Shown here piece after piece: positions 5,985-57,524 of a stretch of DNA of 64,000 nucleotides (within the stretch, counting starts at the first letter, position 1; each line of letters begins with the position of its first letter). Under the pieces are notes generated by a model. The model worked only from the letters and a program-made list of their open reading frames with translations. It was not told the origin of the DNA and made no database searches. The position numbers and the translations under genes were made by a program. Source of the DNA: an uncultured bacterium (lineage in GTDB: Bacteria; Bacillota; Clostridia; Lachnospirales; Lachnospiraceae); assembly GCA_947383005.1 (NCBI GenBank), contig CANDBT010000005.1:1-64000 (forward strand), in the 5' to 3' direction.

Positions 5985-7235
5985 TTGTCTGTTATTCGAA
6001 TCCAGGGACTGCATAGTTTACGAGGTGAGATTGAGATACAAGGTTCCAAAAATGCGGTGCTTCCGGTAATGGCGGCTGCCCTGCTTCACAGCGGAACGAT
6101 TGTGATAACCAATGTCCCCAGAATACAGGATATGTTCTGTATGATGGGGATATTGGAATATATGGGATGCCGGTGCCAGTTGGATGGGCACAGGCTGATT
6201 ATGGATACCCGGGGGCTGGTTTCTGTTCCTGTTCCGGAAGATAAGGGAAAACAGATGCGTTCTTCCGTCATGTTGTTAGGGCCTCTTTTAGGCAGGCTTC
6301 ACGAGGCTGTTACATGCCGTCCCGGCGGCTGTACCATAGGCAAGCGTCCTATTGACTTGCATTTCTATGTTTTGCGGGAGATGGGAGCCAGGATTGAGGA
6401 AGAGGGCGGACGGATCAAGGCATTTACCGGCGGTTTGAGGGGGGCGATGCTGAGATTGCCGTTTCCAAGTGTGGGCGCTACGGAAAATGCCCTCATGGCG
6501 GCAGTAGCGGCAGAAGGGGCTACTTGTATCCGGGGAGCGTCCAGGGAACCGGAGATTGAAACTTTGTGCAGGTTCTTGACGGAGATCGGTGCGAGTATTT
6601 CCGGTATAGGCACCAGTACATTGACTGTGCAGGGCGGCAAAAAGCTGCATGACGGGGAATTTGCCATTCCCGGGGACCGAATTGTAGCGGGAACTTATTT
6701 AGGGGCGGTAATGGCGGCTGGAGGAGAGCTGATCCTTTCGGGAGCGCCCATAGCGCATATGGCCGATACCCTTGAAGCAGCCGAACAGGCAGGCTGCGGC
6801 CTGGAGATTTCCGGAGGCGTAATCCGTGCCAGGATGAGAGGCCGTCCCAGGCCAGTGAGCCTGAGCACAGGGCCTTATCCGGCTTTTTCCACGGATCTGC
6901 AGTCGGTCATGCTGGCAGTAGCTTCCGTGGCCGGGGGGGATTCGCTGATCCGCGAAAATGTATTCGAAGAAAGGTTTGCCACTGCAGGCGAGCTGCAGAA
7001 AATGGGCGCGGATATTGTTATTGACGGGTCTGCGGCAAGAATATCCGGGAAAAAGTCTCTTATCGGCAGCAGAGTACAGGCGTCGGATTTGCGGGGAGGA
7101 GCGGCTTTGGTGGTAGCCGGCCTGGCGGCCGAGGGGGTAAGTGAAATTTACGGTTATTCTTATATCAGCCGGGGATATGAGGATATCAGCCGGGATTTGG
7201 CGGCGGCAGGCGCTAGTACTGCATTGCGGAAATAA
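5985..7235 (+). CDS. murA: UDP-N-acetylglucosamine 1-carboxyvinyltransferase MurA
   Basis: MurA transfers enolpyruvate from PEP to UDP-GlcNAc, the first committed step of peptidoglycan synthesis. The 416-residue protein has the EPSP-synthase fold signatures: GSKNAVLPVMAA near the N-terminus with the catalytic-loop lysine region, and RPGGCTIGKRP carrying the fosfomycin-reactive cysteine. The start is TTG at 5985, supported by AGGGAGG six bases upstream; no ATG fits. The last six codons (residues STALRK) and the stop lie inside a repeat element starting at 7213, so the native C-terminus after RGYEDISRDLAAAGA was probably replaced. Many Clostridia have two MurA paralogues; which one this is cannot be decided. 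Confidence 0.93.
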   Translation: MSVIRIQGLHSLRGEIEIQGSKNAVLPVMAAALLHSGTIVITNVPRIQDMFCMMGILEYMGCRCQLDGHRLIMDTRGLVSVPVPEDKGKQMRSSVMLLGPLLGRLHEAVTCRPGGCTIGKRPIDLHFYVLREMGARIEEEGGRIKAFTGGLRGAMLRLPFPSVGATENALMAAVAAEGATCIRGASREPEIETLCRFLTEIGASISGIGTSTLTVQGGKKLHDGEFAIPGDRIVAGTYLGAVMAAGGELILSGAPIAHMADTLEAAEQAGCGLEISGGVIRARMRGRPRPVSLSTGPYPAFSTDLQSVMLAVASVAGGDSLIRENVFEERFATAGELQKMGADIVIDGSAARISGKKSLIGSRVQASDLRGGAALVVAGLAAEGVSEIYGYSYISRGYEDISRDLAAAGASTALRK

Positions 7236-45530: not shown

Positions 45531-45630
45531 ATGATGATACCAGGGTTCCAAAGTCAAAAATCCGATGTAAGCTTGCTTGCAAGAGGATTTTTGACCTTGG
45601 AACCCGCAAAAACACCTAAAAGTAGCCATT
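45531..45630. repeat. Left arm of a roughly 100-bp inverted repeat flanking the PAS regulator
   Basis: Runs from GATGATACCAGGGTTC through AAGCTTGCTTGCAAGAGGA to AACACCTAAAAGTAGCCATT. The reverse complement of 46515-46617 has the same sequence with few differences. The arm itself holds a shorter GGTTCCAAAGTCAAAAATCC / GGATTTTTGACCTTGGAACC hairpin. The rest of 45319-45530 is very AT-rich. Confidence 0.8.
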
Positions 45631-45704
45631 CAGGAAAAAATATGCTGTCAGCCCCTTATCGGAAAGCCAACAGCATATTCCCCATTTTCCCATTCCCGTT
45701 TATT

Positions 45705-46400: not shown

Positions 46401-46445
46401 GCAAGCTTGCATCGGATTTTTTGACCTTTGAACTTCTATGATACC
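46401..46445. repeat. Partial third copy of the inverted-repeat sequence
   Basis: GCAAGCTTGCATCGGATTTT then TTGACCTTTGAAC and ATGATACCA repeats part of the right arm at 46569-46612, directly upstream of the regulator start. Confidence 0.6.
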
Positions 46446-46514
46446 ACGGATTGCTCCGCATTTCATGCTCCCGCAATCCTAAAACACCTCAAATTCGCTC
46501 ATTTTTCTGCGAAA

Positions 46515-46617
46515 AATGGCTACTTTTCGGTGTTTTGGCGGGTTCAAAGTTCAAGAATCCTCTTGCAAGCAAGCTTGCATTGGATTTTTTGACCTTTGAA
46601 CCCTGGTATCATCATAT
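46515..46617. repeat. Right arm of the inverted repeat flanking the PAS regulator
   Basis: AATGGCTACTTTTCGGTGTT, then GCAAGCAAGCTTGCAT and GAACCCTGGTATCATC form the complement of the left arm at 45531-45630. The remaining gap to 46838 is AT-rich and presumably holds the dehydrogenase promoter, but no strong hexamer pair stands out. Confidence 0.8.
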
Positions 46618-47970: not shown

Positions 47971-49386
47971 TTATCTGGCTTTTTCATACTTCTCGATCTT
48001 ACACTGATGCTTTTTTTTCCCAGCCGGGGCTTCTTTGTCATAGTTGATCCCTACCAGAAGAATATCGCCTCCATACCCCTTAACCGCGTTCGGATACTGT
48101 CTGCCTTTTATTTGTCCAATCGCGCCTTCCGCTGACTTATTCCATTTCAATTCAATTATCAAAGCCGGCAGCATGGAATCTTTCTTTGCCTCTTCCCTTC
48201 CATGGACCGTATCTTCTATAAGCCGTTGGCTCTCCTGTACCCGCCGAATGGTATCATCCCGTCTTACCTGTCGGATGGCTTTGGCGAACTCCAGACGGAT
48301 CTCTTCATTGGGAACCCGGGCTTTTCCCGTTCTCTCGTCATAGGCCAGATATCCCAGATGGATCAGCAGAGTCAGCACATCATCCCTGTCCCGGAACGTC
48401 GCTAGGTCATTGGCAAAGCCTTTGGTGTCTACCTTTGTCTCCACACCGCCGATCAGCCCCGCAACAGTCCTGCCCAAGCCATCAAAATCAAGGTTAATGT
48501 ATCCCATCAGACTCTCAGCGGCAGAAGTCTGGGTCCAGTAGGAATCAAAGTCATCATTGCGAATAGCCTCTATCACAGAATTGGGATTATAGACGGACTG
48601 GATATTCCGAAAACCATATCCATCATACCACTGTTTCATTTTTTTAAAGTCCCTGCCATGTTCCCGGCAGAGAGTTCTTACCTCGTCCTCCGTAAATCCA
48701 ACATATTTCTCGAACTGCCTGGGCTTGATCATGGTAAATTCTTTAAAATCCGATATGGCTGACTGGGAGCTCTCTTTCTTGACAGGCAGGATTCCGGTCA
48801 TGTATACTGCCGCGAAGGTTTTACTTGTCAGGCCGCTGTTCTTGAACAGAGAACGCAAGAATTCCAGATATTTTTTCTGCAAATCCGGGCGATCCCCGGC
48901 CTCTCTGATGGGAGCATCCCACTCGTCTATGATCATGATAAATTTGTTTCCCGTTTTTTGAGTCCCATTGGCCAGTGTCGCGCCGAAACCCTCCACAACA
49001 TCCAGTCCGGGATACTGATCCCTCAACTCACGGATTATATTCCGCTGGATATAAGGCACCACATCCATAACAGAAGCTTCTCCTATAACTCCGGTCATGT
49101 CCAGGTAGATCACGTCATACCGGTTCCGATGCTCTTCATATCCCGGGTCGCCGGCAATATCCAGATCATCAAAAAGGCTGGATGAATCACAGGTTTTGTC
49201 ATAATAAGCACACAGCATCTGAGCTGCGAAGGATTTTCCAAAACGGCGGGGACGGCTTACGCAGGTCAGGCATCTTGGCGTATCTATGGTCTGGTTGATC
49301 AATCCGATCAGCCCTGATTTATCTACATAAATATCTCTTCTGATTCTGGAAAATCCGCTGTTGCCCGGATTTACATAATTTCCCAT
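47971..49386 (-). CDS. AAA-ATPase-like protein with PD-(D/E)XK nuclease-type domain (DUF1703)
   Basis: A 471-residue protein common in multiple copies in gut Clostridia. The N-terminal half is AAA-ATPase-like: VDKSGLI, SRPRRFGKSFAAQML as the P-loop region and IMIIDEWDAPI as Walker B. The C-terminal half has the DUF1703 nuclease-like core (ALIIELKWNKSAEGAIGQI, then YGGDILLVGINYD). Function is not established; mobile or defence roles have been suggested for the fold. The ATG at 49386 has no strong ribosome site. It is a single gene converging on the dehydrogenase. Confidence 0.88.
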   Translation of the reverse strand: MGNYVNPGNSGFSRIRRDIYVDKSGLIGLINQTIDTPRCLTCVSRPRRFGKSFAAQMLCAYYDKTCDSSSLFDDLDIAGDPGYEEHRNRYDVIYLDMTGVIGEASVMDVVPYIQRNIIRELRDQYPGLDVVEGFGATLANGTQKTGNKFIMIIDEWDAPIREAGDRPDLQKKYLEFLRSLFKNSGLTSKTFAAVYMTGILPVKKESSQSAISDFKEFTMIKPRQFEKYVGFTEDEVRTLCREHGRDFKKMKQWYDGYGFRNIQSVYNPNSVIEAIRNDDFDSYWTQTSAAESLMGYINLDFDGLGRTVAGLIGGVETKVDTKGFANDLATFRDRDDVLTLLIHLGYLAYDERTGKARVPNEEIRLEFAKAIRQVRRDDTIRRVQESQRLIEDTVHGREEAKKDSMLPALIIELKWNKSAEGAIGQIKGRQYPNAVKGYGGDILLVGINYDKEAPAGKKKHQCKIEKYEKAR

Positions 49387-49648: not shown

Positions 49649-49780
49649 TACAAAAAAGCAAGCTTTAAAATAAAGCCTGCAAATAAAAACTCACTTATCC
49701 CCTAACTTATGCTGTTTCCCAGCAGGGAAGTTCAGCTTTTGCTGAATCATGAGGTATAATTTTGGTATTTGGCGGAGTGG

Positions 49781-49810
49781 TTTTTCGCGGACTAACCTAT
49801 TCTGCGAAAA
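49781..49810 (+). repeat. Left recombination-site-like inverted repeat
   Basis: The 30-bp block reads as 11-bp arms TTTTCGCGGAC (49782-49792) and TTCTGCGAAAA (49800-49810) around the 7-bp spacer TAACCTA. It is inverted relative to 51258-51287 with 28 of 30 bases identical. This is the expected shape of a tyrosine-recombinase core site. A TATAAT at 49755-49760 points toward it from outside. Confidence 0.75.
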
Positions 49811-50062
49811 GAAAAACCAGGCATCCTTTCTGTGTTATTTGCTATATCGGCATAATTTTATCATAGTTAATAGGAAATCACTATAATTTTTTTCATTTCG
49901 GGTGGTTTTTGGGCGGCTGTAACAGCGGTTATTCCGGATAGCCGGTATCCCATCAGGGCAGAAAGTTCAGGAAAACGGGCAGGAGCAGGGTTTTATGGTC
50001 ACTTTCATGGTCAAAATTTCCGGGAGAGAAGCTGTCCCGGGCGGGCAAAGGAGGAACAGGCA

Positions 50063-51226
50063 ATGGCAAGGCATGGGGAAAATATCAGGAAAAGGAAAGA
50101 CGGGAGATGGGAGGCGCGTTACCGGGCGGATAATGTGGGGGAAGGCCGAAGGACTTATCGTTCCGTGTATGGGAGAACTTATGAGGAAGCAAAGGAAAAG
50201 CGTGTAAATGCTATCCGGGCGGAAGAAAAAACGCCTGTCCATGATACAAGGCGTATTGGTGTTTGCATGCCAGGTGAAGGGGACATACTCAGCCGGCAGG
50301 TATTATTTTCCGAAGCGGCGGATCACTGGCTGGAAAAAATAGCAGGCAAGCGGAAGTATTCTACTTATATAAAGTACAGGAACATTTACCGGCTCTATTT
50401 GGAAGAGGCATTAGGCCCATGCCTGCTTTGCGATACGTCGGGTTCGGAACTCCAGGAAAAGATTTCTGACCACGTATTGGAGAGCAGGCTGTCCGACAGC
50501 ATCAAAAAGAGTGTCTGCTGTGTCACCAATCAGATTTTGAAGTTTGCAGCCAAGGAGTATTCCGTCCACATCCCTGTATTGAATCCGGAGGCGCCAAAGC
50601 GGGAAAATAGGCTGGTGGAGACGTTTACCAGACAGGAGCAGTCCCGGCTTTTGGAGTGCATTTATGGCAGCCTGGATCTGTTTAAGATCGCCATGCTCCT
50701 TTGCATGTACACAGGAATGCGTCTGGGAGAGCTGTGTGCGTTAAAATGGACGGATCTTGATGTTCGTGACGAAGTGGTGACTGTAAACAGGACGGTGCAG
50801 CGAATTGCCGTGAAAGGATGTGAGAGCAAAACCATTCTGATGGAAACCGAACCCAAAAGCGCGTATTCCAAAAGGACAATTCCGCTTAGCGCGGAGATCC
50901 TGGGGCTGCTAAAAGGAATTCAAGGGGACAAACCGTATGTGTTTGGCGGGGATAAGCCTCTGGAACCCAGGACGATGCAGTACCGGTTTCAAAAGATCCT
51001 GGACGAGGCAGATGTAGACGGCAGGAATTTTCATATTCTCCGTCATACTTTTGCCACAAACTGCGTGGAAAGCGGCATGGACGTAAAGACGCTGAGCGTG
51101 ATCCTCGGCCATTCCGACGTGAAAATTACCCTGAACCGTTATGTGCATCCGACGATGGATTCCAGGCGGAGGCAGATGGGGCTGCTTCCGGGCTTTTATG
51201 GTCAGATTCGTGGTCAGACAGTCTGA
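50063..51226 (+). CDS. Tyrosine recombinase/integrase
   Basis: A 387-residue phage-type integrase. An N-terminal AP2-like arm-binding stretch (ENIRKRKDGRWEARYRA) is followed by a SAM-like core-binding domain (about 80-170) and the catalytic domain. Catalytic residues are visible as GMRLGELCAL (Arg), HILRHTFATN (HxxR), ILGHSDVKITL (His) and the nucleophile in NRYVH (Tyr). The ATG 50063 follows GGAGGAA. The gene is enclosed by inverted 30-bp sites at 49781 and 51258, so its likely reaction here is inversion of its own segment. A candidate promoter with TATAAT lies near 49881. The gap from 49387 holds a repeat copy and the left site. Confidence 0.93.
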   Translation: MARHGENIRKRKDGRWEARYRADNVGEGRRTYRSVYGRTYEEAKEKRVNAIRAEEKTPVHDTRRIGVCMPGEGDILSRQVLFSEAADHWLEKIAGKRKYSTYIKYRNIYRLYLEEALGPCLLCDTSGSELQEKISDHVLESRLSDSIKKSVCCVTNQILKFAAKEYSVHIPVLNPEAPKRENRLVETFTRQEQSRLLECIYGSLDLFKIAMLLCMYTGMRLGELCALKWTDLDVRDEVVTVNRTVQRIAVKGCESKTILMETEPKSAYSKRTIPLSAEILGLLKGIQGDKPYVFGGDKPLEPRTMQYRFQKILDEADVDGRNFHILRHTFATNCVESGMDVKTLSVILGHSDVKITLNRYVHPTMDSRRRQMGLLPGFYGQIRGQTV

Positions 51227-51257
51227 AAAGCGTTGTGTTTATTGGAATTTAGAGGGA

Positions 51258-51287
51258 TTTTCGCAGAATAGGTTATTCTGCGAAAAA
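51258..51287 (-). repeat. Right recombination-site-like inverted repeat
   Basis: Arms TTTTCGCAGAA (51258-51268) and TTCTGCGAAAA (51276-51286) are exact complements around spacer TAGGTTA, which is the reverse complement of the left spacer. It lies 31 bp after the integrase stop and 75 bp before the TnpB-like gene. Confidence 0.78.
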
Positions 51288-51361: not shown

Positions 51362-52795
51362 ATGAAAGGGCATAAGGATACTATATGCATGAAAGGGCAT
51401 AAAGATACTATATATAAGACCGTTTACCAATACAATCAGGTTCCTGTTTCTGCTGCCGACATGGAAAAGCTCCAGGAGCTTGCCAGAAATTGTCGGGATG
51501 TAAGAAACTCCGTCTACGAAAGATATGGCGGAATCCGGGGGCTGTCCAAGATCTATCCGGGCTACACCGCACAGAATGAAATGACAAAAAGCAGGCTTAG
51601 GGAGCAATTGAACCTCCCGGCAGTATATTTTTACCTATCTATTTTTGATGCGTTGGGAGATATCAAGAGCCAGTGGGCGTACACAAAGAAGCAGGTGGAG
51701 AAAAATATCCGTGCGAACCCGAATCTGAGTCCGGAGGATTGCCATTACCTGCGGTTTGTCATGAAGCAAAGCCAATGTTTTGCGTCCGTCCTGGCTGGAG
51801 GAGAACCGCATCTATCCGGTATCTGGGAGGAGCGGTATGCGGCTGTCCGTGAAAAGGTGGACATCCACAGGCTGGACGGGTATTTGCGCCGGCAGGTGCG
51901 CCGTCACTTGGGAAAATCCCATACCGACGTGGCAGACGGGTTCCCAGCCTCGCCCAAAGGATACCGGTATGCAGACCATGGGATTTACCTTACCACGAAG
52001 GAGCGGGGGAAACGGATTTTTATCCCGTTGACGGATAATAACCGGTATGACCGTCAGATTTACATCCGCCTTTATCCGGAGGAGAGAAACATAAGGATCA
52101 GCGTGCCTGTCGAGGTGAGGCAGAGACATCCGGAAGGGTATGAAGGGGAATTGGGACTTGCCATGGGCCTTAAATGTATGTTTGTAACTGATCAGGGCAG
52201 GACTTACGGGGAAAAGTACCTGGAATATCAGTCTGCCCTTACCGATTATGTGAGGGAGCGGCTGCCTCGCCACCAGAAGAATGCCAGGAACAACCCTGGG
52301 ATGAAAAAGTATAATGCGGGGAAGATAAGGCTGGAACGGGCGATGCACGGATATGTGAACGCGGAGATTAACCGGATGCTGGAAACGGAGAAGCCGGAGA
52401 TTGTCTATTTTCCGAAGCTGCCCCCACAGTCGAAGCCTGGTTTTAACCGGAGAGTGAACGCCACCGTCAGCATGTGGCAGAAAGGTTTCATCAAGAACAG
52501 GCTGGCCCGGAAATGCTGGGAGCGCTCCGTTGAACTGGTGGAGGTATTCGGAAAAGGAATCAGTACCCAGTGCAGCCGCTGCGGGACTGAAGGGATGAAA
52601 GAAGAGAATCTGTTTTGCTGCCCGTCCTGCGGGCTTGTGCTGCCGGAAAGGCAGAACACCGCAGGGAACGTCCTGGGGAGGGGGCGTGCATTGCAGGGGG
52701 CTGCTGGAAGTGGCCATAGTGTTATACAGCAAATTAAAAGGAGTGGCGACTGCAAAGAAAAGGGGCCGGAAAACGGCATGGCTAAAGTGTTTTAG
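51362..52795 (+). CDS. Nuclease-dead TnpB-like protein (RNA-guided family)
   Basis: A 477-residue protein matching the IS605-type TnpB/OrfB fold in its C-terminal half. The RuvC-I strand is GELGLAMGLKCMFVTDQG, where Ala267 stands in for the catalytic Asp (GxDxG). The second strand is PEIVYFPKLP, with Phe350 at the Glu position. A zinc ribbon (Cys404, Cys407, Cys420, Cys423) is kept. The last motif is LPERQNTAGNVLG, with Arg430 at the Asp of DxNAA. So RNA and DNA binding may persist without cleavage, as in TldR-type repressors. The N-terminal 20 residues hold a duplicated MKGHKDTI unit, making ATG 51362 and ATG 51389 both possible starts. No TnpA is nearby. Confidence 0.8.
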   Translation: MKGHKDTICMKGHKDTIYKTVYQYNQVPVSAADMEKLQELARNCRDVRNSVYERYGGIRGLSKIYPGYTAQNEMTKSRLREQLNLPAVYFYLSIFDALGDIKSQWAYTKKQVEKNIRANPNLSPEDCHYLRFVMKQSQCFASVLAGGEPHLSGIWEERYAAVREKVDIHRLDGYLRRQVRRHLGKSHTDVADGFPASPKGYRYADHGIYLTTKERGKRIFIPLTDNNRYDRQIYIRLYPEERNIRISVPVEVRQRHPEGYEGELGLAMGLKCMFVTDQGRTYGEKYLEYQSALTDYVRERLPRHQKNARNNPGMKKYNAGKIRLERAMHGYVNAEINRMLETEKPEIVYFPKLPPQSKPGFNRRVNATVSMWQKGFIKNRLARKCWERSVELVEVFGKGISTQCSRCGTEGMKEENLFCCPSCGLVLPERQNTAGNVLGRGRALQGAAGSGHSVIQQIKRSGDCKEKGPENGMAKVF

Positions 52796-53165
52796 TAAAG
52801 TTCAGTAAGAAGGGTTCTGTGGATGAACGTACCGTAAGGATGCGTTTGACCGAAACCGGGGACGGGAATAGGAACGCGGGATAATTCTTTTGATAAAAAA
52901 TAAGGACGGCATTGGAAGCCGGTTCCTTCGGGAGCCGGGTATTGGGTATGCCAGGACCTATGGGAACTTCCAGGCGGGTTTACCCCGAGTGGAAGAAGTA
53001 CCGGGAGCGAAGCAGGCAGGGGCGGCCATAGGGCGAAAGCCTATAGGGGCAGGCACTGTCGGCACCGTCCGGGAGGGCGGCAAAATATGTCTTATTAAAA
53101 AAATGGCGCCGGCGGTGAAGGCCATTCACCCTTTGGCAGCAGAAATGTCCGGCCAATTCATATGA
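52796..53165 (+). ncRNA. Hairpin-rich region after the TnpB-like gene, candidate guide-RNA scaffold
   Basis: No convincing gene occupies this stretch. Strong local hairpins are visible: CCGGTTCC-TTCG-GGAGCCGG (52919-52938), CGGG-TTTA-CCCCG near 52977, ATAGGGC-GAAA-GCCTATA near 53030-53047, CCGTCC-GGGA-GGGCGG near 53067-53082, and GGTGAA/TTCACC near 53115-53131. UUCG and GNRA type loops suggest a folded RNA. In TnpB loci the guide RNA overlaps the gene's 3' end and extends downstream, so this is the expected place. RNA boundaries and guide are not known. Confidence 0.45.
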
Positions 53166-53210: not shown

Positions 53211-54608
53211 TTGGAGAGATGTAAAAAGAAGAATATTATCAATCTGATAAACAAGATGTCAGAGGCAAATGACGCGGTCATGAAAGCAGTTCCCGCCCTT
53301 CCCGAGAAATTTACCGATGTATTTGCCCAATGCCAGGATGCGGCTTTTGAGATTGGCACATACCTGGAAACCTTTGGAGAGCAGTATCGCTCCATGGTAG
53401 AGGAGCTGGAGGATTACTGTGAAAAAATATACCAGATGAGTATTGCCACATCCGAGGAAAACACATGCCGGAAGCTGTCCAAAAAAATCAGAAAACAGCT
53501 AAGCCGGCTACAAAGCAGAATCCAACAGGAGATGCCGGAGGATCGGAAGGAAGTGGTATTTCTGCCCTATAAGGCTTCCATGTGGGACTCTTTGGAAAGC
53601 GTGTGGAGGGCAGCAGATGAGGATGAGAACACGGATGCCTATGTGATTCCCATCCCTTATTACGATAAAAACCCGGACGGAAGCTTTCGGAAGGAGCATT
53701 ATGAGGGTGACTTGTACCCAGTGGATGTTCCGATCACGGGATATGATGAATATGATTTTGAAAACCGCAGGCCGGATATGATCTTTATCCATAATCCGTA
53801 TGACAATATGAACTATGTGACCAGCGTCCATCCCTTTTTCTATTCGGAGAATCTAAAAAGGTTTACTGACCAGCTGATCTATATCCCGTACTTTGTATTG
53901 GGAGAGATTGATCCGGATAACGAAGCGGCGGTTAAAGGGATGGAACATTTTTGCATTACCCAGGGAGTAATCCACGCAGATAAGGTGATTGTGCAGTCAG
54001 AGTCCATGAAGAAAATCTACGTAAATGTGCTGACAGACTTTATGAAGAAAAATATTGGACAGGACACCCGGGAGTATTGGGACAGGAAAATCTTGGGGCT
54101 GGGATCGCCGAAATTTGACAAGGCGGTGAATACCAGAAAAGAGGATGTGGATGTGCCGGAGGAGTGGCTGAAGGTGATCGAAAAAGAGGACGGGAGCTGG
54201 AAGAAGGTTATCTTTTACAATACCACCGTCCAGGCCCTGTTGGATCACAGAGAGAAAATGTACCGGAAGATCAGGGATGTGCTGCGGGTGTTCAAAGATA
54301 ATCAGAAGGAAGTGGCGCTGCTGTGGCGCCCCCATCCACTAATCGAAGCCACGATCCGATCCATGGGGCTGGAGGGAGGAGAGGAGTACAGGGAGATTGT
54401 GGAGACCTACCTGACGGAGGGATGGGGAATCTATGATGATACGGCGGATCTGGACCGGGCGATTGCGCTGAGCGATGCTTATTATGGGGATGGGAGCTCG
54501 GTGGTGGAGCTGTGCCGGGAGAGAGGAGTGCCGGTGATGATACAGAATGTGGAGGTTGTGGGGGAAAGAATACAAGGAAGAAATGTAAGTAGAAAAACGA
54601 GTCGATAG
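53211..54608 (+). CDS. CDP-glycerol glycerophosphotransferase-like protein
   Basis: A 465-residue protein with an N-terminal helical part (about 1-115, coiled-coil-like) and a GT-B-type C-terminal part related to teichoic-acid glycerophosphotransferases. Landmarks are VVFLPYKASMWDSLESVW, PDMIFIHNPYDNMNYVTSVHP, LLWRPHPLIEATI and SDAYYGDGSSVVELCRERG. The start is TTG 53211 after GGGAGG. The C-terminus (GERIQGRNVSRKTSR) coincides with a sharp fall in GC content and may be truncated. It may act in surface polymer synthesis, as suggested by the genes up to 64000. Confidence 0.7.
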   Translation: MERCKKKNIINLINKMSEANDAVMKAVPALPEKFTDVFAQCQDAAFEIGTYLETFGEQYRSMVEELEDYCEKIYQMSIATSEENTCRKLSKKIRKQLSRLQSRIQQEMPEDRKEVVFLPYKASMWDSLESVWRAADEDENTDAYVIPIPYYDKNPDGSFRKEHYEGDLYPVDVPITGYDEYDFENRRPDMIFIHNPYDNMNYVTSVHPFFYSENLKRFTDQLIYIPYFVLGEIDPDNEAAVKGMEHFCITQGVIHADKVIVQSESMKKIYVNVLTDFMKKNIGQDTREYWDRKILGLGSPKFDKAVNTRKEDVDVPEEWLKVIEKEDGSWKKVIFYNTTVQALLDHREKMYRKIRDVLRVFKDNQKEVALLWRPHPLIEATIRSMGLEGGEEYREIVETYLTEGWGIYDDTADLDRAIALSDAYYGDGSSVVELCRERGVPVMIQNVEVVGERIQGRNVSRKTSR

Positions 54609-54674: not shown

Positions 54675-55832
54675 ATGAGTAGTCTATATATATTAAGAAA
54701 TGAAAAGTATGTTGAGATAAGAAATGAAATTTGGTTTGCAAATTTACAATTTAATGCATTAGTGAAAATTGAGAAAAGTTCTGGGAAAATCCGGTTAATG
54801 CGGAAATTTCCTCATTATAATATTGGGTATGGATGGTTATATTCAATGGTATATAATGTAGAAAATGAATTGATATTCCTTCCATGTTATAGCGATGAAA
54901 TAGTATTGTACAATATTGATTTGGATAGATTTACCAGTATTGCTTTGGACAAAAATATTTTAGGTGATTTTAAACCTTATTTTGGGAGCGCCTATTATTA
55001 CGGACAATACATATATATGTTTCCTGTCAGAGCCAAAAAAATTGTTAGATATGATGTGATTAAGCATTCAGTAAAATATTTGAGTAGTGAATTAGACTTT
55101 ATTTTATCTAAACACACTGAAGAATCTGTTTGCTTTTATAAGCAATTTGAAATTTTAAAAGAAGAAATATATCTTCCATTTGCAGAATTAAATGCAGTAG
55201 CAATATTTAACCTTAAAGATGAGAGATTAAATATTAAATATTTAAATATTAATGGCGGATGTTCAACAATTAATTATGTTAATGAAAGATTCTATTTATC
55301 TTCATGGTCTTCCTGTAATATATACTGTTGGAATCCCAAAATGGACAAAATAATATTATATTCAAATTTTCCAGATAATTTTGAACCGGGGGATTATTTG
55401 TTTTCTTATGTTTGTATGGAAAAAGAAAAACTTTTTTATTTCCCTCACCGTAGTAATGCGGTTATTTCTTTTAATATTAAAAATGGCGAAATACTTGAAG
55501 AAAGAAAAGTGAATAATGGATCTGTTGGAACGTATTATATGCAGCAGGAAGGAAATAAGATTAATATTTTAATGGAGGATATGGAAAATCCATATACAGT
55601 AAATATTGAAAATGGGAAATTACATTGGGAACTTTATATACGATTAGATAATTTGTATAACAAACAACAGATTAGCGATTATCTTTTAGAGCATAACTAT
55701 TATGAGTGTTTTATTGAGGGAAAAGAAAGCCTGGACGAATATATAGATGTTTTATTAAATTCTAAAAACATAAAAAAGCATAAAAAGATAGGTGGTTCAG
55801 GAAATTTAATATTTAGTAAGATCCGATATTAA
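54675..55832 (+). CDS. Beta-propeller-like repeat protein (first of two)
   Basis: A 385-residue protein of low GC. Repeated segments of about 45-50 residues have the pattern hydrophobic-W/Y-F-P followed by a turn: YSMVYNVENELIFLPCYSDE, YYYGQYIYMFPVRAKKIVRY, FYLSSWSSCNIYCWNPK and KLFYFPHRSNAVISFN. This suggests a beta-propeller. No signal peptide or membrane segment is seen. A paralogue-like protein lies at 57717. Ligand and role are unknown; the pair flanks two exported proteins. Confidence 0.6.
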   Translation: MSSLYILRNEKYVEIRNEIWFANLQFNALVKIEKSSGKIRLMRKFPHYNIGYGWLYSMVYNVENELIFLPCYSDEIVLYNIDLDRFTSIALDKNILGDFKPYFGSAYYYGQYIYMFPVRAKKIVRYDVIKHSVKYLSSELDFILSKHTEESVCFYKQFEILKEEIYLPFAELNAVAIFNLKDERLNIKYLNINGGCSTINYVNERFYLSSWSSCNIYCWNPKMDKIILYSNFPDNFEPGDYLFSYVCMEKEKLFYFPHRSNAVISFNIKNGEILEERKVNNGSVGTYYMQQEGNKINILMEDMENPYTVNIENGKLHWELYIRLDNLYNKQQISDYLLEHNYYECFIEGKESLDEYIDVLLNSKNIKKHKKIGGSGNLIFSKIRY

Positions 55833-55903
55833 TCATCTATAAGGAAGGAATTAAAGATTTTTAATAGATGTTTAATATAAAGTTGCTGATAGGAGGTACA
55901 TAT

Positions 55904-56431
55904 ATGTCAAAACAAAATGAGCTTGGTGGAAAAAAGAAAGGGGGGAATATTGTTTTTATCATATGCATTGTGGTTATTGTAATACTTTTGGCTTTAGTTA
56001 TATATTTGCTTATGAGATCCAAAAAAGGGGATGAACCAATAAACCGTAATATAGTGGTTAATTCTGAGAACGTGGAACAGGTTCTGGAAAATCTGGAAAG
56101 AGAAGAAAGAGTGCCTGTTGGAAGTTATGAAGTAACGATGAATACTACTTGGAATTTTTCTCGTGGTGATGCTCCTTCAGACAATGCATATGTAGAAAAT
56201 GCAAAATCAAATACTAATTCCGTTTATTTTGATGTTATACGTTCAGATACGGAAGAAACTATTTATGAGTCACCAATATTGCCAGTAGGAAGCTATCTGG
56301 AAGACATTACGTTAGATACAATATTGCCTGCAGGAACATATGACTGTTTATTAATTTATCATCTTCTTGATGATGAGAACAACAGTATAAGTACAGTAAA
56401 GCTAACTTTGACAATAGTTATTGCTCAATAG
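55904..56431 (+). CDS. Single-pass membrane protein with extracellular beta domain
   Basis: A 175-residue protein starting at ATG 55904 after AGGAGG. A Lys-rich cytoplasmic tail (NELGGKKKGG) precedes one membrane helix (NIVFIICIVVIVILLALVIY) and an outside domain of about 130 residues. Its alternating pattern (SVYFDVIRSDTEETIYESPI, AGTYDCLLIYHLLDDE) suggests an Ig-like beta sandwich. It lies immediately before a secreted protein and may anchor or partner it. No family is recognised. Confidence 0.6.
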   Translation: MSKQNELGGKKKGGNIVFIICIVVIVILLALVIYLLMRSKKGDEPINRNIVVNSENVEQVLENLEREERVPVGSYEVTMNTTWNFSRGDAPSDNAYVENAKSNTNSVYFDVIRSDTEETIYESPILPVGSYLEDITLDTILPAGTYDCLLIYHLLDDENNSISTVKLTLTIVIAQ

Positions 56432-56492
56432 AAGTTTGAATCCTATCAGCAGAGAAAAAGAAGTGATAATTTTTAAGGAGGTCATGCGAATA

Positions 56493-57524
56493 ATGTATAA
56501 GAAAATTTTGGCAGGATTTTTAGCAGCTACAATGGTAACAGGAAGTTCTTTTATGGCGTTTGCTGCACAAAGCGGTTCCACATCTGGTGAAGGTTCTTTG
56601 GATATTGTAGAGAAATCTGATGTTTTTAACGTGGTTCTGCCGACTGTTCCAGCGGATGGTGATACCAGGTTTGACTATATCCTTGACCCTACATCAGTAA
56701 TTAACGGTACAAGTGCGGCAAAGTATAATGGCGCAACTTTTGCAAGTGGAAAGACGGTTTATTTTAAAAACGCTCCTACAACTGATGGCGGAGCTGCAAG
56801 CTACAGTGAAAAAAGCGATACGCTGACGATAACGAACAAAGGGACGGTTAATGTAGATGTTACAGTTAGCGCTTCTGTTAAAGCGGTAACAGGTATTACT
56901 ATGGCTTCAACCGGTACATTTACAGATACTACGGATAAAACAGCGAGTTTATATCTTGCCTTAACTGATGGAACAAATACAAATCCAATTACTTCTTCAG
57001 GAGGAACATTAACAAGCACACTTGCTGGAAGCCCATCTGCTTATGAACCCAAGTTTGTAGATGGAAAATATGTAATGGTAGAAAAAGAAAATTCGGGAGT
57101 AACATTTAATACATTCTCCTTTGGCCTTACTGGTGCTTGTAATCCTAACGGGGTATGGACTGGATTGACTGATAAACCGCCGGTGGTTGATTTGGTTTGG
57201 ACAGTAACTGACAGCACGGTAACGACAACTGTTGCTCTTTCTGCTACTGGAGAAGTTACCTTAAGCGATTTGACCAAAGATGCTAATGTTGTCAGTGCCA
57301 GCACAGATATTACACTGGGTGTGGGTGGTGCTTTATATCCTGTGGATGACAGCGCGGTTACCTGGGATGTATCAGCTTGGACAGCAGAAAATGGCGGTAC
57401 GCTTAAATTTACATTAGGCGATGCCTACAAGGCTGCCTATAATGGGAAAAAGGTTACCGTTTCGGTTAAATTGAATAATGGCTCTGTAATTAGTTGTGTT
57501 GCTGATCTTAATATGCCAGAATAA
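56493..57524 (+). CDS. Secreted Thr/Ser-rich surface protein
   Basis: A 343-residue exported protein. The start is ATG 56493, eleven bases after AAGGAGG; ATG 56484 is an alternative. The signal peptide MYKKILAGFLAATMVTGSSF ends near AFAAQ. The mature protein is rich in Thr, Ser, Gly and Val with beta-strand patterns (TLTITNKGTVNVDVTVSAS, VVDLVWTVTDSTVTTT). It has almost no cysteine and no LPXTG anchor. It may be a fimbrial-like or surface-layer type subunit. Role unknown. Confidence 0.65.
   Translation: MYKKILAGFLAATMVTGSSFMAFAAQSGSTSGEGSLDIVEKSDVFNVVLPTVPADGDTRFDYILDPTSVINGTSAAKYNGATFASGKTVYFKNAPTTDGGAASYSEKSDTLTITNKGTVNVDVTVSASVKAVTGITMASTGTFTDTTDKTASLYLALTDGTNTNPITSSGGTLTSTLAGSPSAYEPKFVDGKYVMVEKENSGVTFNTFSFGLTGACNPNGVWTGLTDKPPVVDLVWTVTDSTVTTTVALSATGEVTLSDLTKDANVVSASTDITLGVGGALYPVDDSAVTWDVSAWTAENGGTLKFTLGDAYKAAYNGKKVTVSVKLNNGSVISCVADLNMPE

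Follow-up and report, generated by a model that had tools for sequence, protein, structure and literature searches.

A TnpB-like protein with a replaced RuvC triad

In the window, by which we mean the whole 64,000-nt stretch analyzed here, an open reading frame (51362..52795, +) encodes a nuclease-dead TnpB-like protein of 477 amino acids, preceded by a recombinase gene within an inverted-repeat-bounded segment and followed by a structured RNA and a series of genes on the same strand. Pfam Cas12f1-like_TNB matched the protein at E = 1.6 × 10⁻⁶ (28.6 bits; cut-off 26.3) and NCBIfam guided_TnpB at E = 4.3 × 10⁻¹³ (49.3 bits, under its cut-off of 100), and a profile built from 18 family proteins found Cas12f (E = 5.8 × 10⁻⁸) and, weakly, ISDra2-type TnpB structures (8bf8, E = 0.024). 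Together with an alignment to a live TnpB, these matches place the product in the TnpB superfamily. At the 5′ end of the gene, a 25-nt tandem repeat with 27-nt spacing gives two ATG codons, 51362 and the alternative start 51389, and close relatives align with the second.

A sequence-only reading of this DNA had proposed that all three RuvC catalytic positions are replaced, and this stands, with one residue corrected. We aligned the protein with L105, a live TnpB of another family in the same class (122/446 identities). The catalytic Asp of L105 aligns with Ala267 (52160-52162, +) of the RuvC-I motif GLAMG, as had been read. At the second position Phe350 had been named, but Phe350 lies opposite a Met of L105, and the residue opposite the catalytic Glu (EIVMEQL) is Pro351 (52412-52414, +); the replacement is thus real and the residue was off by one. 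The third Asp of L105 stands two residues before a conserved Asn, where the window protein has Arg430 (52649-52651, +) ahead of Asn432, again as had been read. A one-residue gap in the BLAST alignment at RuvC-III prints the live Asp opposite Glu429, a position at which several relatives carry Lys, Thr, Ser, Arg, Ile, Val or Gly, so that an acid is not conserved there. The window protein accordingly lacks the intact Asp/Glu/Asp of active IS200/IS605 or IS607 TnpBs. Its zinc ribbon (Cys404/407/420/423; 52571..52630, +, by alignment) is intact, in agreement with the earlier reading.

Relatives were found in 9 of 299 family genomes and in 14 of 295 close-relative genomes (the latter including the window's own genome and several of the 9), with eight loci from the GTDB contig collection and one from a viral contig. 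A class-wide search matched 4 of 391 genomes, two of them already in the set and the other two contributing the live L105 and L106. Before counting we dropped repeat entries of one locus, the broken copy L043 and fragments (L024, L107, L108 and small pieces), which left a comparison set of 34 dead and 2 live rows. Intact dead-tnpB copies number one to three per genome and two in the window's own genome; one family locus (L019) belongs to a strain with a name, Schaedlerella arabinosiphila DSM 106076. On a tree holding the dead family and the two live relatives only, a 100/100 branch parts all 34 dead rows from the live pair (midpoint root; bootstrap not settled).

The replacements proved to be fixed among orthologues under purifying selection, a check that the earlier reading had itself proposed. 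RuvC-I carries Ser in 18 dead rows, Ala in 15 and Asn in 1; RuvC-II carries Pro in 23, Ala in 5, Val in 4 and Ile in 2; and RuvC-III carries Lys in 20, Arg in 13 and Gly in 1. All three positions are non-acidic in 34/34 dead rows (L041, counted among them, has one in-frame stop) and read D/E/D in 2/2 live rows, and all four zinc-ribbon cysteines are kept in every dead row. The dN/dS of dead tnpB was 0.072–0.138 in nine of ten pairs, ratios that are rough because most dS values exceeded 1 and the tenth pair gave no estimate; values of 0.07–0.14 argue that the gene is not decaying. Fixed triad changes, low dN/dS and the covarying RNA 3′ of the gene (below) together support the view that the window protein is a nuclease-dead, domesticated TnpB.

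A functionless mobile-element remnant, riding on a mobile invertible cassette, would account for the presence of one to three intact copies per genome, for the copy on a viral contig, for the broken or fragmentary copies L043, L107, L108 and L024, and for the in-frame stop in L041. The selection result disfavors such a remnant, as do the fixed triad changes, the conserved RNA, the downstream gene families that recur across loci and the absence of TnpA among the nine neighboring window proteins scanned; we consider it very improbable.

A covarying RNA follows the gene

Conservation 3′ of the tnpB reading frame reaches far past the coding region and stops after CTTAT, which we took as the guide start. 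Its 5′ part (52796..52905, +) is marked by sequence conservation only and lies outside the covariance model. The structured core (52906..53095, +), a presumed guide-RNA scaffold delimited by conservation and covariation, ends in TATGTCTTAT. The presumed guide (53096..53115, +) starts where conservation ends, and these coordinates do not define its length.

A covarying RNA lies 3′ of dead tnpB in 33 of 34 loci, the exception being L035. The fold, drawn from 26 of the 33 core sequences (the other seven being near copies, divergent or interrupted by long inserts), has 24 pairs, 19 of them with two-sided changes. Pairing cells reached 94.0%, against 81.1% in shuffled and 31.6–41.4% in slid alignments, and the covariation score was 0.438 against 0.203 in shuffled alignments, with 0 of 500 shuffles as high. 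Applied to 14 sources outside its training set, the covariance model matched eight, namely the seven left-out dead loci plus the broken L043; it gave no match at L035, the two live loci or three fragment loci. One of the matched loci, L094, is a close copy of L093, on which the model had been trained. The model matched once within the 64-kb window and nowhere in L173–L176, and no Rfam family covers the RNA. A GGCAT/ATGCC pairing at the RNA 3′ end was dropped, being broken in several loci.

At the live relatives we saw, by eye, a hairpin that gives way to an AT-rich block, past which the flank diverges. Kinship of the family RNA with this RNA (omega-RNA) was considered and set aside: the two look alike by eye, yet the covariance model finds nothing there. 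The live loci L105 (6753-8138) and L106 (family f43), whose TnpBs are only distant relatives of the dead family, also each have a conserved block of ~500 nt, ~200–700 nt upstream of the gene. These loci bear some resemblance to IStrons, but that label was rejected; Rfam gave no intron there at gathering score. At L043 (G283:C75) dead tnpB is broken by stops or frameshifts and the RNA (6088-6238, −) is intact at 112.6 bits; it could still act in trans as an RNA supply. Elsewhere in the window, Rfam places a Clostridiales-1 RNA at 46439-46611 (−; 119.1 bits, above gathering score); another match, at 45535-45650 (+), stays below threshold (41.4 against 48).

An invertible segment with a putative promoter lies upstream of the gene

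The sequence-only reading had seen a tyrosine recombinase beside dead tnpB, and this gene is real (50063..51226, +; Phage_integrase E = 1.4 × 10⁻²⁷). It reads towards dead tnpB and lies inside an invertible segment of 1447 nt between arms (1.45 kb; 49811..51257), delimited by the arms and by comparison with relatives. A repeat search placed the left arm at 49781..49810 (30 nt, 93% complementary to the right arm) and the right arm, a near-palindromic site TTTTCGCAGAATA-GGT-TATTCTGCGAAAA, at 51258..51287. A putative promoter (49855..49883, −; extended −10 TGATAAAAT, poor −35) was placed by homology with L017 and L020; it points away from tnpB, so that the window copy, by this placement, is in the OFF orientation. 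A hairpin scan found a terminator-like hairpin (49658..49680, −) that closely flanks the left arm on its outer side and lies downstream of this OFF-oriented promoter. The earlier reading had noted neither the repeats around the recombinase nor the promoter within them, nor the structured RNA that follows tnpB. Beyond it lies an AAA-ATPase_like gene with a weak PDDEXK_9 match (47971-49386, −), towards which the OFF promoter points.

Comparison between loci shows this segment in both orientations. The window segment aligned with that of L017 at 1038/1421 positions when inverted and at 440/970 when direct, and the recombinase is reversed in L017 and L020 relative to the window, the promoter there being aimed at dead tnpB. 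L093 and L094 represent one locus in two species of one genus; their 95-nt segments aligned at 93/95 inverted and 32/66 direct, with a collinear tnpB side (429/460) and a left flank that is not collinear (129/269) because L093 carries a duplication there. Both pairs thus present the two orientations in different species. The duplication, in L093 (G699:C33), consists of additional, incomplete copies of the start of tnpB ~60–1064 nt upstream, one of them inverted and each with inverton arms (434-nt arms); such local duplication beside an intact gene might permit larger rearrangements.

Across the family, a segment bounded by inverted repeats lies upstream of dead tnpB in 28/34 loci, 13 of the long and 15 of the short type. 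Eleven of the 34 have the recombinase inside the segment; no recombinase lies between the similar arms of L032 and L033, which are separated by 311 and 393 nt. The earlier reading had taken the recombinase for an unusual substitute for TnpA; this does not hold, since the gene belongs to an invertible promoter-bearing segment and 15/34 loci have a short segment instead. A role as transposition partner was likewise ruled out, because the gene sits within the segment that inverts. Strict promoter scanning called a promoter in 23 of 28 family segments; two strict scans made no call for the window promoter, and one of them made none in L018 and L032 either. By eye, each of the 11 recombinase genes is preceded by a promoter-like sequence aimed outwards from the cassette. 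Judged by recombinase orientation, the promoter faces tnpB in 2/11 and points away in 9/11, the window among the nine. A terminator outside the left arm, tried as a further feature of these segments, was rejected (8/28 loci against 4, 0, 0, 1 and 0 of 28 in five controls).

Short-type segments have 95–137 nt between arms such as TTCCCAAAAAGTGTACTTTTTGGGAA, which we take to resemble serine-invertase sites. Two of these loci have a serine recombinase upstream of tnpB, L146 at a distance of 282 nt (Resolvase E = 4.4 × 10⁻²⁹) and L092 at ~1.5 kb, and the fetched flanks of the remaining 13 short-type loci held no homologue; recombinase homologues thus lie near 2/15 short-type loci, with a weak tyrosine-recombinase match near L036 in addition. 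By best call, the short-type promoter faces tnpB in L093, L096, L102 (where the reverse call is nearly equal) and L146, points away in eight loci and is tied in L097, with no call in L098 and L103. A clear invertible segment was absent at six of 34 loci (L034, L035, L039, L041, L100 and L101). Because arm pairs of 13–20 nt also occur at loci without a segment, live loci included, L103 (18-nt arms) was accepted for its motif alone. The tyrosine-type label requires three changes on the tree, of which supported branches force just one; repeated exchange of switch types during the history of the family is consequently likely rather than shown.

The adjacency of segment and gene in 28/34 loci, with a recombinase inside in 11, would also suit a dead TnpB–RNA complex that aids or steers the neighboring recombinase at its inversion sites and leaves other genes alone. 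Two different site types are in use, however, six loci have no segment, and guide matches to the loci's own upstream regions did not exceed those of mismatched pairs; a role as a recombination factor therefore seems to us quite improbable.

The RNA is followed by genes on the same strand

Downstream of the RNA in the window lie a glycerophosphotransferase-like gene (family c2; 53211..54608, +), a gene without a family above cut-off (54675..55832, +; PQQ_2 E = 0.39), a gene whose product has one N-terminal hydrophobic stretch by eye (family c3; 55868..56431, +; no Pfam match above cut-off) and a gene whose product has a signal-peptide-like N-terminus by eye (family c4; 56421..57524, +; no Pfam family). 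In all 32 loci where it could be read (of 33 with the RNA), the next reading frame after the RNA shared the strand of dead tnpB; at L039 this frame is a doubtful one of 100 amino acids, and the next long one is reversed. Family c2 occurs in 18/34 loci (more than 4 kb downstream in two), c3 in 10 and c4 in 9, and c2 or c3 lies downstream of dead tnpB in 26/34. A cytidylyltransferase/oxidoreductase fusion and an IspD-like protein are among the other neighbors. Families c2 and c3 suggest surface glycans or secreted proteins, "surface glycan" being a label that we infer from the gene sets, because Pfam support for c2 (Glyphos_transf) is modest in the window (E = 3.7 × 10⁻⁵, just above cut-off) and absent in three longer homologues.

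Two loci deserve separate mention. L146, on the viral contig IMGVR_UViG_3300035516_000911, combines the dead member with Asn at RuvC-I, the serine recombinase, the RNA, an inverted-repeat promoter facing tnpB, a c2 gene and the cytidylyltransferase/oxidoreductase fusion; its upstream reading frames look phage-like by eye (lysin and holin). L039 (G057:C9), which has no clear invertible segment, is the sole family member with a flagellin-like reading frame directly upstream of dead tnpB, a neighbor that recalls the fliC–TldR pairing.

Guide-target searches gave two leads

Searches of the own genome, the own locus and across copies, with counts that include self-hits, established no guide target and stayed at or near control level. 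Own-genome 18-mers with up to three mismatches gave 14 matches against 11 in the control (4 against 3 in a second search), and 14-mers with one mismatch gave 2 against 4 (2 against 2 in a second search). Guide prefixes showed no excess over mismatched pairs at their own loci (32 loci). Across copies in seven genomes the mean was 9.95 against 10.25, a control inflated (~9.8 otherwise) by two values of 20, probably from the near copies L093/L094. A paralogue of the downstream gene (L145) gave no match from the guide start longer than 8 nt.

The guide of L093/L094, searched as a 15-mer with two mismatches in two sister genomes, gave 26 matches against 8 in the control, an excess that is unexplained; most lie inside reading frames, and just one orthologous pair lies in a promoter. 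We note two sites as leads only. The window guide, with position 4 as its only mismatch, matches G000:C11:41320-41333, a site where licD ends (3′) and an IspD-like gene follows; the surrounding cluster also holds genes for a NusG-like protein and a sugar transferase. The L093/L094 guide matches 13 nt exactly over the −10 of an HlyD/ABC-transporter promoter in both sister genomes, which count as one orthologous observation. Ahead of an HlyD/ABC-transporter operon, at ~4882 (+) in L175 and ~4580 (−) in L176, stands a promoter-like block with a G run in its spacer (TTGACA...GGGGGGGGGTAAAATGGATTGAC); the two genomes, which belong to one genus, agree fully in this block and differ in its flanks.

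The conserved 12-mer AATRTGYCTTAT was also tried as a universal guide and rejected, with 37 matches against 38 in the control over nine genomes (7 against 2 in G000). Of the 37 matches, 30 were taken on as loci and 29 contexts were inspected; 11 are known RNA loci and the others lack the scaffold, so that neither an orphan RNA nor a common target came to light. For one TldR, guides of only 6 nt are enough, according to Walker et al. 2026 (PMC13418256), and whole-genome matching with a guide of undefined length consequently has little power. Of the sequence-only description of a domesticated, non-cleaving RNA-guided DNA-binding protein, then, domestication and loss of cleavage are upheld; RNA-guided DNA binding is the part for which the searches established no target.

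These searches bear on a further alternative, in which dead TnpB binds the RNA of its own transcript and controls downstream processing, termination or translation as a cis-acting leader regulator with no DNA guide. The RNA does intervene between dead tnpB and its downstream neighbor, with a shared strand in all 32 readable loci and, in some, only ~20–30 nt left before the next start, and the absence of a guide target fits as well. Against this, the RNA has a kept 3′ end followed by divergent sequence, like a guide RNA, and the dead TnpBs described in PMC13418256 act on DNA. We regard a cis-acting leader as unlikely.

A model for the switch

Comparison of the loci has established a segment between inverted repeats found in opposite orientations, the fixed loss of the RuvC triad, purifying selection, a covarying RNA and downstream genes on the same strand. 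A dead cutting site, a retained RNA and a flipping promoter together look like an RNA-guided regulator that is switched on and off. We therefore favor, and think rather probable, a phase-variable, TldR-like regulator that heads surface operons and for which we infer RNA guidance.

In this model, a site-specific recombinase would flip the promoter-bearing segment directly upstream of dead tnpB; in the window, recombinase gene and promoter would share one 1.45-kb segment. In the ON state the promoter would drive dead tnpB, the RNA and the surface genes together, and in the OFF state transcription would head away from tnpB, in the window into the terminator. By analogy with TldRs, dead TnpB would bind its RNA and, via a short guide, DNA, and might thereby repress a competing gene set elsewhere, most simply a competing surface locus.

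More tentatively, and with less than even confidence, we propose that this is a family of phase-variable RNA-guided repressors that cross-regulate surface polysaccharide loci in gut Lachnospiraceae, the ON state pairing expression of a surface operon with silencing of a competitor by dead TnpB and its guide. Tyrosine-type modules and, judging from adjacency at two loci, serine-type modules would work one and the same switch, and a viral contig carries one member. In this locus, which heads a surface operon of a gut bacterium, DNA inversion meets what we presume to be RNA-guided DNA binding. If the repressor role is true, these bacteria would have a means of showing one surface coat at a time, and TldR biology would widen from flagellin and transport to surface glycans.

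Comparison with known systems

Gut bacteria use invertible promoters (invertons), and in Bacteroides the UpxZ proteins are trans-inhibitors of capsule loci. The window locus likewise has a putative invertible promoter before surface-polysaccharide-like genes and a presumed trans-inhibitor heading the operon; its presumed inhibitor is dead TnpB with an RNA, whereas UpxZ is protein-only. The flagellar phase switch of Salmonella, hin-fljBA, also places a recombinase gene and an outward promoter in one invertible segment and co-expresses a repressor with the alternative surface structure, as we presume here. It differs in using a serine rather than a tyrosine recombinase, and the repressor at the window locus is presumed to be RNA-guided.

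TldRs (TnpB-like nuclease-dead repressors) were reportedly described by Wiegand et al. in 2024, with a fliC and an oppF type. They share with the window family the dead RuvC, the intact zinc ribbon, the RNA after the gene and domestication; a putatively phase-variable promoter and a surface operon set the present family apart. Among the papers listed by the literature searches, which covered few subscription papers and are weak evidence on this point, none linked a dead TnpB with segments of the tyrosine-recombinase kind or with operons for surface glycans.

The closest precedent is the csrA-linked TldRs. According to Walker et al. 2026 (PMC13418256), dead TnpBs are known as RNA-guided repressors, and csrA-linked TldRs occur with hin genes and ~120-bp promoter inversions, which are offered as a possible extra layer of control. 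Common to these and to the window family are a nuclease-dead TnpB, an adjacent RNA, an invertible segment with a promoter ahead of the gene, the presence of several copies in a genome and gut Clostridia-type hosts. Particular to csrA-TldR, as described in PMC13418256, are the serine invertase hin, adjoining csrA and fliC, and guides that target fliC by RIP-seq and ChIP-seq. In our set, a crude pattern found no CsrA-like motif in the 36 oriented loci and, at that level, no csrA within 3 kb, flagellin adjoins only one of the 36 (L039), and a serine recombinase lies upstream of tnpB only in L146 and L092, with no hin-type invertase upstream at the window. The window locus instead carries a tyrosine recombinase inside its 1.45-kb segment and, downstream, genes that suggest surface glycans or secreted proteins.
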